Shown here in pieces: positions 13,064 to 17,350 of a stretch of DNA of 64,000 nt. The notes below the pieces were generated by a model. The model had not been told where the DNA came from. It saw only the letters and a program-made list of their open reading frames with translations, and did not search any database. Source of the stretch: Curtobacterium sp. MCSS17_008 (GTDB lineage: Bacteria > Actinomycetota > Actinomycetes > Actinomycetales > Microbacteriaceae). Every line of letters begins with the position of its first letter. Positions within the stretch are counted from its first letter, which is position 1. The translations under genes and the position numbers were made by a program. The stretch covers positions 1-64,000 of the forward strand of contig NZ_QKSM01000001.1 in NCBI RefSeq assembly GCF_003234185.1, written 5' to 3'.

Positions 13064-13124
13064 TGCACATTCGTGCAGCAGCGCGCTCTACAACTTGTCG
13101 AGGCAGGTGACCGGCCGGTAGCGT
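13064..13124 (+). promoter_or_regulatory. Putative cydABDC promoter with upstream inverted repeat
   Basis: TTGTCG (13095-13100) and TAGCGT (13119-13124), 18 nt apart, form a plausible promoter. TGCAC ATTC GTGCA (13064-13077) is an inverted repeat just upstream, a candidate operator. It does not match the Rex or Crp consensus I know. It would yield a 5' leader of about 50 nt before the 14-codon leader ORF at 13183. Confidence 0.45.
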
Positions 13125-13182
13125 GGAGGTGTCCCGACGGGGTGACACACACCAGTCCCACTTCCCAGAGGAAGCAACTCTC

Positions 13183-13227
13183 GTGCACGAACAGCGCGCG
13201 GCGAACCGGCTCGGACACGCCGCATGA
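13183..13227 (+). CDS. Putative 14-aa leader ORF translationally coupled to cydA
   Basis: A GTG start, 8 nt after the best ribosome site in the region (AGAGGAAG, 13167-13174), opens the frame MHEQRAANRLGHAA. Its TGA stop (13225-13227) overlaps the ATG of cydA (13224-13226) in an ATGA. cydA itself has no recognisable Shine-Dalgarno sequence, and the leader ribosome site is out of frame with cydA. Ribosomes would therefore reach cydA by termination-reinitiation. It has two histidines and three arginines and no homology I recognise. It may be a coupling device rather than a functional peptide. Confidence 0.55.
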   Translation: MHEQRAANRLGHAA

Positions 13228-14636
13228 ACGACATCCTCGATCCGCTCATCCTGTCGCGGTGGCAGTTCGGTCTCACGACGATCTACCACTTCCTCTTCGT
13301 CCCGCTGACGATCGGCATGGCCGTCGTCGTCGCGGTGTTCCAGACGGCCTGGGTCCGCACGGGGCGAGCGCACTACCTGCAGCTGACCCGGTTCTTCGGG
13401 CGCATCTTCCTCATCAACTTCGCGATGGGGGTCGTCACCGGCATCGTGCAGGAGTTCCAGTTCGGCATGAACTGGTCGAACTACTCCCGCTTCGTCGGTG
13501 ACGTGTTCGGCGCTCCGCTCGCGCTCGAGGGCATCCTGGCGTTCTTCTTCGAGGCGGCGTTCATCGGCGTCTGGATCTTCGGGTGGGACCGGCTGCCGAA
13601 GGCGGTGCACCTGGCGAGCATCTGGTGCGTGAGCGTCGGCACCATGCTGTCGGCCTACTTCATCCTCGCGGCCAACGCCTTCATGCAGCACCCGGTCGGT
13701 TTCGCGATCAACGAGACCAAGGGCCGCGCGGAGCTCACCGACATCTGGGCGGTGCTGACGAACAAGGTCGCCCTGGCCGCGTTCCCGCACACGCTGTTCG
13801 GCGCGTTCATGGTGGCGGCCTCGGTCATCGTCGCGGTCGCCGCGTACCACCTGGCCCGGAACCAGAACCTCGAGACGATGATGCCGGCGCTCAAGTTCGG
13901 CATGTGGACGATGCTCGCGTCGGGCGCGCTGACGGTGCTCTCGGGCGACCAGCTCGGCCTGACGATGGTCGACACCCAGCCGATGAAGATGGCCGCGGCC
14001 GAGGCGCTCTACAACACCTCGACGGGCAGGGACGCGTCGTTCTCGATCTTCACGCTCGGCACCCCGGACGGGGTCCACGAGCTGTTCTCCATCCGCATCC
14101 CGTACCTGCTCTCGTTCCTGTCGACGCACACGTTCAACGGGACGGTCGAGGGCATCAACGACCTGCAGGCGCAGTACGCACAGGTGTACGGCCCAGGTGA
14201 CTACAAGCCGATCATCTGGGTGACCTACTGGTCGTTCCGCTGGATGATCGCCCTCGGCGTCGGCGCGGTGCTCGTGTCCCTCGTCGGTCTGTGGCTGACC
14301 CGCAAGGGCCGCTTCCCGACGCAGCGGTGGGTGTGGCGCGTGGCGACGTGGTCGGTGCCCCTGCCGATGGCCGCGATGATCATGGGTTGGATCTTCACGG
14401 AGATGGGCCGGCAGCCGTGGCTCGTCTTCGGACTGCTCCGTACGGCCGACGGTGTCTCGCCGAACGTCACCGGGCTCGAGGTCCTCATCTCGCTGGTCGT
14501 GTTCACGCTCATCTACGGCGCACTCGCGGTCGTCGAGTTCAAGCTCATCAAGAAGGTCGCCCAGGAGGGTCCCGCCGCACCTGCGCAGGTCGACGAGGCC
14601 TCGGGCGAGGTCAAGCACGAAGTGACGGTGTACTAG
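13224..14636 (+). CDS. cydA: Cytochrome bd ubiquinol/menaquinol oxidase subunit I
   Basis: A 470-aa heme-bearing subunit of the high-affinity bd oxidase, which reduces O2 with quinol and without proton pumping. The N-terminal RWQFGLTTIYHFLFVPLTIG carries His22 (b595 ligand). Glu102 and Glu110 lie in LEGILAFFFEAAF. His189 (FPHT) is the b558 ligand candidate. The quinol-site GRQPW motif is near 394-398. Overall length indicates the short Q-loop class. No Shine-Dalgarno precedes the ATG, which overlaps the stop of the 13183 leader ORF. It heads cydA-cydB-cydD-cydC. Confidence 0.96.
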   Translation: MNDILDPLILSRWQFGLTTIYHFLFVPLTIGMAVVVAVFQTAWVRTGRAHYLQLTRFFGRIFLINFAMGVVTGIVQEFQFGMNWSNYSRFVGDVFGAPLALEGILAFFFEAAFIGVWIFGWDRLPKAVHLASIWCVSVGTMLSAYFILAANAFMQHPVGFAINETKGRAELTDIWAVLTNKVALAAFPHTLFGAFMVAASVIVAVAAYHLARNQNLETMMPALKFGMWTMLASGALTVLSGDQLGLTMVDTQPMKMAAAEALYNTSTGRDASFSIFTLGTPDGVHELFSIRIPYLLSFLSTHTFNGTVEGINDLQAQYAQVYGPGDYKPIIWVTYWSFRWMIALGVGAVLVSLVGLWLTRKGRFPTQRWVWRVATWSVPLPMAAMIMGWIFTEMGRQPWLVFGLLRTADGVSPNVTGLEVLISLVVFTLIYGALAVVEFKLIKKVAQEGPAAPAQVDEASGEVKHEVTVY

Positions 14637-14652: not shown

Positions 14653-15657
14653 ATGGATCTCCCTGTTCTGTGGTTCGCGATCGTCGGACTGTTCTTCGTC
14701 GGGTACTTCGTGCTCGACGGGTTCGACTTCGGCGTCGGCATGTCCCTGCCGTTCCTCGGCAAGGACGACACCGACCGCCGTGTCCTGATCAACACGATCG
14801 GCCCGGTGTGGGACCTCAACGAGACGTGGGTGATCGTCGCCGGCGCCTGCCTGTTCGCGGCCTTCCCGGAGTGGTACGCCACGATGTTCTCGGGCTTCTA
14901 CCTGGCGCTGCTGCTCATCCTCGCGGCGCTCATCGCCCGCGGCGTGTCCTTCGAGTACCGGCACCAGGGCAAGCACCCGGAGTGGAAGCGCCGGTTCGAC
15001 CTCATGATCGTCGTCGGCAGCGCCGTGCCGTCGTTCCTGTGGGGTGTGGCGTTCGGCAACGTCGTCCGGGGCATCCCGATGGACGCCGACCACAACTACA
15101 CCGGCACCCTGTTCGACCTGCTCAACCCGTTCGCCCTGCTGACCGGGCTCGCGACCCTCGTGGTGTTCTTCACGCACGGCGTCGTGTTCGTCGCGCTGAA
15201 GACCGAGGGTGAGATCCGCGAGCGAGCCAAGCGGCTCGCGACCCGCGCGGGTGTGCTGACGATCGTCGTCGGCGCCGCGTTCCTGGTCGCGATGGCGTTC
15301 GTCCGGGCCACCCCGGCGTCCCTGGTGCTGTCGGTCGTGGCCGCGTTGGCGCTCGTCCTGGCGGTGCTCTGCAACGCGTGGGGCAAGGAGGGTCGGGCGT
15401 TCACGCTCATGGCCGTCACGATCGCGGCGGTGGTGCTGGCGATGTTCACGGCGATCTTCCCGGACGTGATGCCCGCCTCGAACGACCCGGCAAACAGCCT
15501 GACCGTGGTCAACGCCTCGAGCGGCGCCTACACGCTGACGGTGATGAGCTGGGTGGCGCTGATCTTCGTGCCGCTCGTGCTCGCCTACCAGGCCTGGACG
15601 TACTGGGTGTTCCGCAAACGCGTCTCGCGGGCACACATCACCCAGGCCGCACACTAG
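14653..15657 (+). CDS. cydB: Cytochrome bd oxidase subunit II
   Basis: A 334-aa integral membrane protein with about nine helices, starting MDLPVLWFAIVGLFFVGYFV and carrying the conserved LDGFDFGVGM near 23-32 and the GPVWDLNETWVI motif near 53-64. It is the structural partner of CydA and pseudo-symmetric to it. It starts 16 nt after the cydA stop with a weak AAGTGGA ribosome site and is followed by cydD after 10 nt. Its C-terminus is basic. Confidence 0.95.
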   Translation: MDLPVLWFAIVGLFFVGYFVLDGFDFGVGMSLPFLGKDDTDRRVLINTIGPVWDLNETWVIVAGACLFAAFPEWYATMFSGFYLALLLILAALIARGVSFEYRHQGKHPEWKRRFDLMIVVGSAVPSFLWGVAFGNVVRGIPMDADHNYTGTLFDLLNPFALLTGLATLVVFFTHGVVFVALKTEGEIRERAKRLATRAGVLTIVVGAAFLVAMAFVRATPASLVLSVVAALALVLAVLCNAWGKEGRAFTLMAVTIAAVVLAMFTAIFPDVMPASNDPANSLTVVNASSGAYTLTVMSWVALIFVPLVLAYQAWTYWVFRKRVSRAHITQAAH

Positions 15658-15667
15658 GCGGCCCGGG

Positions 15668-17350
15668 GTGAAGCCGCTCGACCCGCGTCTGCTCCGCCTC
15701 TCCCGCGCCGCGCGCGGTTCCGTCGTCGCGTCCGCTGCGACGGGACTCGTGCGCACGCTCGCGACGATCGGTATCGCGTGGGGGATCGCCGCCGCGGTCA
15801 CCCTCGGCGTCGACGCCGTCCCGGACGGCCGGGTGCCGGCGGCCCTCACACCGACGCTCGCGCTCCTCGCCGCTGCGTTCGTGGTCCGAGCGGTCGCCGC
15901 GTGGGCGACCGACGACCTGGCGGCGCGGGCCGGGGCGACCGTCAAGAGCGAGCTGCGGACCACGGTGCTCGCGCGGGCGGCGGACCGCGGGCCGTCCTGG
16001 CTCGCCGAGCGGTCGTCCGCCGGCTTCGCGACGACCCTCGGCCCGGGTCTCGACGCCCTCGACGCCTACTTCGGCCGGTACGTGCCGCAGCTCGCGCTCA
16101 CGGCCGTCGCGACGCCGGTGCTGCTCGTCGCCATCGCGTACGCCGACCTGACCAGCGCGCTGGTCATCCTGTTCGCCATGCCGGTCATCCCGGTGTTCAT
16201 GGTGCTCATCGGCCTCGCGACCCAGGCCCTCCAGCGGAAGCAGTCGGACGCGCTCGCACGGCTCGGTGGCGCGTTCACCGAGGCGGTCGAGGGCCTGTCC
16301 ACCCTGAAGGCGTTCGGTCGTGCCCGGCGCCAGGTCGGTCGCATCGGCACGGTGACCGACGAGTACCGGCGCGGCACCATCGGGGTCCTGCGCCTGTCGT
16401 TCGTGAGCGGCTTCGCCCTCGAGCTCGCGGCGAGCCTGTCCGTCGCACTCGTCGCCGTGTCGATCGGCGTGCGACTCGTCGACGGCTCGCTCGGCCTCGG
16501 CGTCGCGATGTTCGTCCTCGTCCTGGCACCGGAGGCGTTCGCGCCCGTCCGCCAGGTCGGCGCCGACTTCCACGCCGCGCAGGACGGCGTCGAGGCCTCG
16601 GCCGCGGTCCTCGACGTCCTCGACGACCGCGCGCCCGGGTCGCTTGACCGCGACCCCCGACGCGACCCCGCAGGCGAGGCCGCCGCGGTCACCACCGCTC
16701 CGGCGGACCTGGTCGTCGAGGGACTCGTCGTCCGCCGACCGGACGTCGTGATCGGTCCGTTCGACCTCCGCGCCGCGCCGGGCACCGTCGTCGCGCTCGC
16801 CGGACCGAGCGGGTCCGGCAAGTCGAGTCTGATCGCCGCGATCCGCGGCGTCCTGCCCCACGACGGCACCGTCACGGTCCCCGGGCCGGCCGGGACGACC
16901 CGTGAGGAGCGCGTCACGTGGGCCGACCAGCGGCCGCGCCTGGTGCGCGGCACGGTCGCCGAGAACGTGGCCCTCACCACCGAACCCGACGAGGGCGACG
17001 TCCGCCGCGCCCTGGCCGAGGCCGGTCTGCCGGTCGAGCCGAGCCTCCCGATCGGGTCCGGCGGGAGCGGTCTGTCCGGCGGCCAGGCGCAGCGTGTGTC
17101 GGTCGCACGGGCCCTCTACCGCGCCCGACGGGCGCGGACCCCGCTCGTGCTGCTCGACGAGCCGACGTCCGCGCTCGACGCGGACGCGGAGCAGATCGTC
17201 GTGCGCGCCGTGCGGGCGCTCGCCGCGGACGGGGCGGTGGTCGTGGTCGCGAGCCACCGGCCAGCGGTGCTCGCCGCGGCCGACGTCCGCTTCGACGTGC
17301 AGCCGGGTGGTTCCGTCGCCGTGACCGACCCGCAGGGGGCACGGGCATGA
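15668..17350 (+). CDS. cydD: Thiol reductant ABC exporter subunit CydD
   Basis: A 560-aa half-transporter: six membrane helices in about 1-310, then an ATPase domain with Walker A GPSGSGKSS (about 379-387), signature LSGGQAQRVS and Walker B LVLLDEPTSALD. With CydC it forms the heterodimer required for bd oxidase assembly, reported in other bacteria to export glutathione/cysteine and/or handle heme. The start is a GTG with a poor ribosome site 10 nt after cydB, suggesting coupling. The stop overlaps the cydC ATG by 4 nt. Confidence 0.93.
   Translation: MKPLDPRLLRLSRAARGSVVASAATGLVRTLATIGIAWGIAAAVTLGVDAVPDGRVPAALTPTLALLAAAFVVRAVAAWATDDLAARAGATVKSELRTTVLARAADRGPSWLAERSSAGFATTLGPGLDALDAYFGRYVPQLALTAVATPVLLVAIAYADLTSALVILFAMPVIPVFMVLIGLATQALQRKQSDALARLGGAFTEAVEGLSTLKAFGRARRQVGRIGTVTDEYRRGTIGVLRLSFVSGFALELAASLSVALVAVSIGVRLVDGSLGLGVAMFVLVLAPEAFAPVRQVGADFHAAQDGVEASAAVLDVLDDRAPGSLDRDPRRDPAGEAAAVTTAPADLVVEGLVVRRPDVVIGPFDLRAAPGTVVALAGPSGSGKSSLIAAIRGVLPHDGTVTVPGPAGTTREERVTWADQRPRLVRGTVAENVALTTEPDEGDVRRALAEAGLPVEPSLPIGSGGSGLSGGQAQRVSVARALYRARRARTPLVLLDEPTSALDADAEQIVVRAVRALAADGAVVVVASHRPAVLAAADVRFDVQPGGSVAVTDPQGARA

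Follow-up and report, generated by a model that had tools for sequence, protein, structure and literature searches.

The cydA locus and its leader ORF

The DNA analyzed here, the first 64,000 nucleotides of a contig of Curtobacterium sp. MCSS17_008 (the window), carries a cytochrome bd gene cluster, whose features are collected in Table 1. Among named genomes the CydA protein finds its best match in Curtobacterium caseinilyticum, with 99% identity over the full length. Upstream of cydA is a short ORF starting at GTG 13183, whose 14 codons encode VHEQRAANRLGHAA and whose stop codon, TGA 13225-13227, shares an ATGA with the cydA start codon, ATG 13224. The cydD and cydC genes likewise overlap by an ATGA (17347-17350).

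Table 1. Features of the cydA upstream region and the adjacent genes
Feature	Position	Strand	Evidence
Inverted repeat TGCACATTCGTGCA, upstream of promoter, probable operator	13064-13077	+	In 62 of 63 aligned Curtobacterium cydA regions
Probable operator: inverted repeat CTCTACAACTTGTCGAG over the -35	13086-13102	+	In 60 of 63 aligned Curtobacterium cydA regions
Probable promoter: TTGTCG 13095-13100, 18-nt spacer, TAGCGT 13119-13124	13095-13124	+	Alignment
Predicted 5' UTR of leader ORF	13131-13182	+	Position of the -10 and the leaderless clade (ATG 6 nt after -10)
SD AGAGGAAG of leader ORF	13167-13174	+	All 58 species have an SD 4-mer ahead of the leader GTG
Leader ORF, 14 codons + TGA	13183-13227	+	Same 41-nt offset and GTG in 58 of 58; codon-position test
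Conserved RNA hairpin	13198-13223	+	Arms 13198-13203/13218-13223; inner pairs 13206-13207 with 13213-13214
ATGA stop-start overlap	13224-13227	+	Sequence here and 58 of 58 Curtobacterium leader loci
cydA	13224-14636	+	Pfam PF01654, E 1.4e-163
cydB	14653-15657	+	Pfam PF02322; directly after cydA in gene order

The claims of the earlier note that a Shine-Dalgarno (SD) sequence serves a GTG frame ending in a TGA over the cydA ATG, and that cydA is without a ribosome site of its own, both agree with the sequence, in which SD-like 4-mers at good spacing occur only for GTG 13183. The SD duplex energy is -5.9 at this GTG versus -3.2 at the cydA ATG, the median for random window positions being -3.0 and the 25th percentile -5.3; hence the leader SD is good, not exceptional. 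As such energies, calculated with G-U pairs allowed, separate real from random sites poorly, counts of SD 4-mers were used instead. An in-frame upstream start for cydA was also sought, and the 26 codons back to the in-frame stop at 13143 contain neither ATG nor GTG nor TTG. There was likewise no hint of a frameshift that would fuse the leader to CydA.

Taken in one sequence alone this arrangement is weak evidence, because all three frames are open in the GC-rich leader stretch in 58 of 58 species, and the ATGA is automatic at this locus, being supplied by the second cydA codon, AAC. This codon is AAC or ACC in relatives, and the ATGA follows from any such A-initial codon. The case is accordingly judged on the comparison between species.

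The promoter and its inverted repeats

The earlier note had placed an inverted repeat next to the promoter, and two are indeed present. A TA[CG]CGT, TAACGT or TACGGT hexamer occupies the expected -10 place in 58 of 58 leader loci, and a sigma-70 scan found no site at the cydA promoter. The upper palindrome (13064-13077) has 12 sites in the genome at up to one mismatch versus 0 for the reversed pattern, and its other exact sites are at glpF/dhaK-like and glpD-like/SorC-type regulator genes (glp and dha names were assigned by eye). In the form TGCAC[AG]TTCGTGCA it recurs at L213, L214, L215 and L219, where it lies before glpF-like/glpK-like and DhaK-like genes or separates a SorC-type sugar-binding regulator (PF04198) from a glpD-like FAD oxidoreductase (PF01266). 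On the basis of these sites cydABDC may be part of a glycerol regulon.

The lower palindrome YTCTACAANTTGTMGAR, at the -35 of cydA, recurs before DUF1775-CopC genes and between PepSY_TM and BLUF genes (L225 and L226), and its TTCTACANNNTGTAGAA type precedes cydA in Leifsonia, Agromyces, Cryobacterium and other Microbacteriaceae. Its genome count alone proves nothing, being 8 versus 6 for the reversed control pattern. A copper-linked control of cytochrome bd, a copper-free oxidase, could be taken from these neighborhoods as a lead. The BlaI/CopY-type regulator of this genome is not proposed as the cydA regulator since no such operator was found in its surroundings. Since the upper palindrome recurs at glycerol genes and the lower at members of copper-type gene families, the regulation of cydABDC is suggested to be at least partly transcriptional, which would leave less need for a regulatory leader. 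A terminal hairpin could form at the predicted mRNA 5' end, GTCCCGACGGGGTGAC (13131-13146), and a similar motif is present in Frigoribacterium-type genomes.

Conservation of the leader within Curtobacterium

CydA matches were recovered in 63 of 66 Curtobacterium genomes, all but G024, G042 and G043; in G002 the sole cydA is a distant one, which has a purine stretch of its own resembling an SD and lacks a leader of this kind. The main cydA of 62 genomes is preceded by the leader in 58 and lacks it in four, which look leaderless. A second cydA, 78-79% identical, is present in four Curtobacterium genomes (L141, L142, L143 and L144); these copies lack this leader and lie downstream of a GGGACGAAGGTCCC palindrome, which we presume to be akin to a DosR box.

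The 58 leaders, which amount to 36 distinct sequences, all start with GTG, lie with this start 41 nt from the cydA ATG and close with a TGA within the ATGA. Thus the layout that typifies RTGA-coupled small ORFs, namely the TGA of a short ORF overlapping an RTG start, is found at every one of these loci. An SD 4-mer precedes the leader GTG in all 58 and also precedes the cydA ATG in five, the latter being an AAGGA 8-9 nt before the ATG. The GTG itself underwent 0 changes, versus 3.0 per site for the rest of the leader, and the distance from the -10 to the GTG takes six lengths (56-61 nt) across these loci, as against the fixed offset from GTG to ATG.

Leader codons 2-13 accumulated 27, 48 and 39 parsimony changes on the cydA tree at codon positions 1, 2 and 3, respectively, versus 26, 2 and 66 by the same count for the 30 initial codons of cydA (the count covers 56 of the 58 leader rows, two with a partial cydA match being omitted). 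This difference indicates that selection does not act on the peptide as it would on an ordinary protein. Hence the second hallmark of RTGA-coupled small ORFs, a linkage that is kept as the peptide varies, is also seen here, both in the codon positions and in other genera (see below). The earlier note had proposed this very comparison as a check, and the conservation of SD, GTG and overlap along with a peptide that is free to change in relatives supports coupling.

Certain residues of the 58 leaders are near-invariant, namely R5, A6, A7, G11, A13 and A14, and these fall on the paired columns of RNA hairpins, in whose arms the third codon positions are nearly frozen. A conserved hairpin is likely to abut the cydA AUG, the last base of its 3' arm immediately preceding it. 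The two arms underwent 0.83 and 1.0 changes per site versus 5.43 in the loop; of the six outer pairs all are formed in 41 of the 58 species, five in 16 and three in one, and the inner CC/GG pairs are formed in 57-58 of 58. No compensatory changes were detected among the 58 species, as the pairs hardly vary and the arms are nearly invariant. A further small stem, in which the GUGC of the leader pairs with GCGC, is formed in 57-58 of 58 species and is as invariant as the hairpin, with a register that is not unique, given that a partner slid by 2 scores equally (0.99). The folding energy of the leader is only about 1 SD below that of shuffled sequences, and the fold of the window leaves the AUG of cydA mostly unpaired and has the leader GTG in a pair.

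Loss of the leader and start modes in other genera

The four Curtobacterium loci that lack the leader (G037, G012, G044 and G021) have both UTR and leader deleted, with only 6 nt from the -10 to the ATG, which is the layout of a leaderless mRNA. This clade is nested firmly in Curtobacterium, with support of 97/97 in the cydA tree and 100/100 in the cydABD tree. A different deletion is seen in the Microbacteriaceae bacterium PS02332 (L009), whose sequence reads SD-GTGCACGACATCC: a deletion of 41 nt between two ACGA repeats, as judged from its sisters, sets the leader SD and GTG directly on cydA. L009 is nested in Curtobacterium at 98/97 in the cydA tree; with cydA alone the AU test rejects neither a basal placement of L009 (p 0.083) nor a tree that unites every leader row in one clade (p 0.098). 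In a 4.4-kb tree of cydA, cydB and most of cydD, whose 32 rows comprise 24 of the 62 Curtobacterium loci, L009 and 7 outgroups, L009 is nested at 94/96 and the basal placement is rejected (AU p 0.018). The trees were built without G022 and G010, which have a partial cydA match, and G377, whose match is in two pieces. On these phylogenies the two lineages are derived ones, from which the leader has evidently been lost. Both losses leave another plausible start for cydA, as is expected if the job of the leader is ribosome delivery.

Beyond Curtobacterium, four of the seven genomes of the genus g5 (G307, G069, G213 and G377) carry an 8-codon ORF that is led by an SD and closes in ATGA, the start codons being ATG, GTG, ATG and TTG, respectively, all at one offset, with differing peptides; the other three look leaderless. 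A start codon that stays in place and varies only between ATG, GTG and TTG is a strong sign of use. We infer that the genus g35 is Frigoribacterium, as G456 and the named locus L041 read the same upstream of cydA. In 12 of the 16 genomes of this Frigoribacterium-type genus cydA is present, with one clear coupled leader (13 codons, in G357), one ambiguous case, seven direct SDs and three leaderless-looking loci; the ambiguous case, G099, combines a GGAG for cydA with a 13-codon leader that has a weaker SD.

A rough automatic classification of start modes in 103 loci outside the 62 main Curtobacterium loci yielded 78 direct, 12 other, five leaderless, five uORF, two without a start and one mixed (L050 and L074, on shorter contigs, were left out). 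On inspection by eye, three of those classed as other (G460, G388 and G414) seem leaderless; G151 fits a leaderless layout as well as a TTG ORF, and G099 was classed as direct owing to its GGAG.

A probable ribosome-delivery device and alternative explanations

The comparison between species shows the SD, start, spacing and overlap to be kept without protein-type conservation, and the apparent leader losses to coincide with another probable start for cydA. The leader is very probably a device for delivering ribosomes to cydA by termination-reinitiation, in which the act of translation would matter rather than the peptide. Ribosomes would bind the SD, initiate at the leader GTG and, while translating the leader, melt the hairpin whose 3' arm adjoins the cydA AUG; they would then terminate at the UGA overlapping this AUG and reinitiate there. 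What we infer here is translation of the leader, reinitiation by its ribosomes and a hairpin that shields the AUG from free ones. The earlier note had proposed a leader-peptide or reinitiation switch responsive to translation status: its coupling is borne out by the retention of SD, start, spacing and overlap and by the second genus, and its sensing of translation status is not.

If the leader instead encoded a regulatory peptide, with codon stalling or the nascent peptide altering cydA expression by attenuation or arrest, the near-invariant residues would find a ready explanation. These residues coincide with paired hairpin columns with nearly frozen third positions, the changes bear no coding signature and the leader peptides of other genera are quite different, which together make such a role highly improbable. 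A sensor based on His and Arg codons, as the earlier note had it, is contradicted by a His count that ranges from 0 to 3 per leader, with none in seven of 58, and by the position of the conserved Arg codon 5 in an RNA stem. Likewise, no conserved regulatory codons or arrest sequence were found in the 58 leaders, and no terminator-like site on the coding (+) strand between 12850 and 13300, as attenuation would entail. Alternatively, cydA might start by itself without an SD, through standby binding or a weak SD, with the leader ORF being a by-product of a UTR or RNA structure that is conserved. Frames that are open by default in GC-rich sequence, the conserved hairpin arms and the AAGGA before the ATG in five species would fit with this; the invariant GTG and fixed offset in Curtobacterium, the confinement of the g5 start codon, at a constant offset, to ATG, GTG and TTG, and the conversion of the leader start itself into the cydA start in L009 render it quite improbable.

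An RNA-binding factor or metabolite acting on the leader SD or hairpins could make the leader a regulated gate, which is compatible with ribosome delivery and adds a signal to it. The stem at the leader start and the hairpin before the AUG could serve such a gate, and iraD of Escherichia coli is reported to work in this way via CsrA (PMC5574718). This addition is unlikely: no Rfam family scores above its gathering score upstream of cydA, the only match being a sub-threshold sRNA one (16.8 bits versus 218), covariation is absent, other lineages do without the leader, and the promoter already has two operator-like palindromes, so that transcription may carry the regulation.

Relationship to known coupled ORFs

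The statement of the earlier note that such a switch is not known to be described holds for cydA as far as the open-licence literature is concerned, where a search for a leader ORF or coupling at cydA or cytochrome bd found nothing, and one for cytochrome bd of Curtobacterium nothing relevant. It does not hold for the principle, which has been published (PMC4633059, PMC11260477, PMC5574718). RTGA-coupled small ORFs are described in mycobacteria as a conserved class (Shell et al. 2015, PMC4633059), and these resemble the cydA leader in being short unannotated ORFs whose TGA overlaps a downstream RTG, and in conserving the linkage and not the peptide. The set featured there comes from leaderless transcripts, whereas the cydA leader has a predicted 5' UTR of ~52 nt and an SD, and the target here, unlike in the mycobacterial cases, is cydA in Microbacteriaceae (PMC4633059). 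In the uPPE2-PPE2 pair of Mycobacterium tuberculosis, an SD-less gene similarly follows an out-of-frame uORF with an AUGA overlap, and PPE2 expression is reported to need uPPE2 translation, mostly by termination-reinitiation; however, that uORF is gated by a B12 riboswitch, and no riboswitch was matched at the cydA leader (PMC11260477). The iraD leader ORF3 of E. coli, whose coupling is reported as demonstrated, is comparable in being a short ORF with its stop over a start and RNA structure near that start; it differs in that the iraD SD is hidden in structure and CsrA acts on the ORF, whereas cydA has no SD 4-mer in 53 of 58 species (PMC5574718).

Leader genes, including those of Actinobacteria, have been proposed to supply the following gene with ribosomes (Korolev et al. 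2016, PMC4833913), but that survey excluded overlaps and had its peak at a spacing of 10-11 bp, and its accessible part does not mention cyd. Across ATGA overlaps, a configuration also seen at the cydA leader, coupled translation was strict in 13 of 14 pairs tested by Huber et al. (2019, PMC6728339); that study deals with gene pairs, not a mini-ORF, and the downstream genes typically have a strong SD. Thus, the cydA leader is probably a further case of the RTGA-coupling principle known from mycobacteria and E. coli, and the natural series of start modes that it belongs to is unusually clear.

Implications for cydA in the Microbacteriaceae

In this group the annotated start sites of cydA without an SD are probably correct. 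Coupled mini-ORFs are usually argued from one or two genomes. Here a single orthologous gene within one genus occurs in the coupled, the direct-SD and the leaderless state, and the deletion joints can be identified; the cost and benefit of each of the three start modes are thus measurable on the same protein. More tentatively, it is possible that cydA in these Microbacteriaceae switches between a direct SD, a leaderless mRNA and a coupled leader on short time scales, in some steps by single small deletions that leave the protein intact, and that the coupled leader, together with the hairpin abutting the AUG, might make CydA synthesis wholly conditional on translation of the leader, a translational gate on cytochrome bd that would be missing in close relatives.
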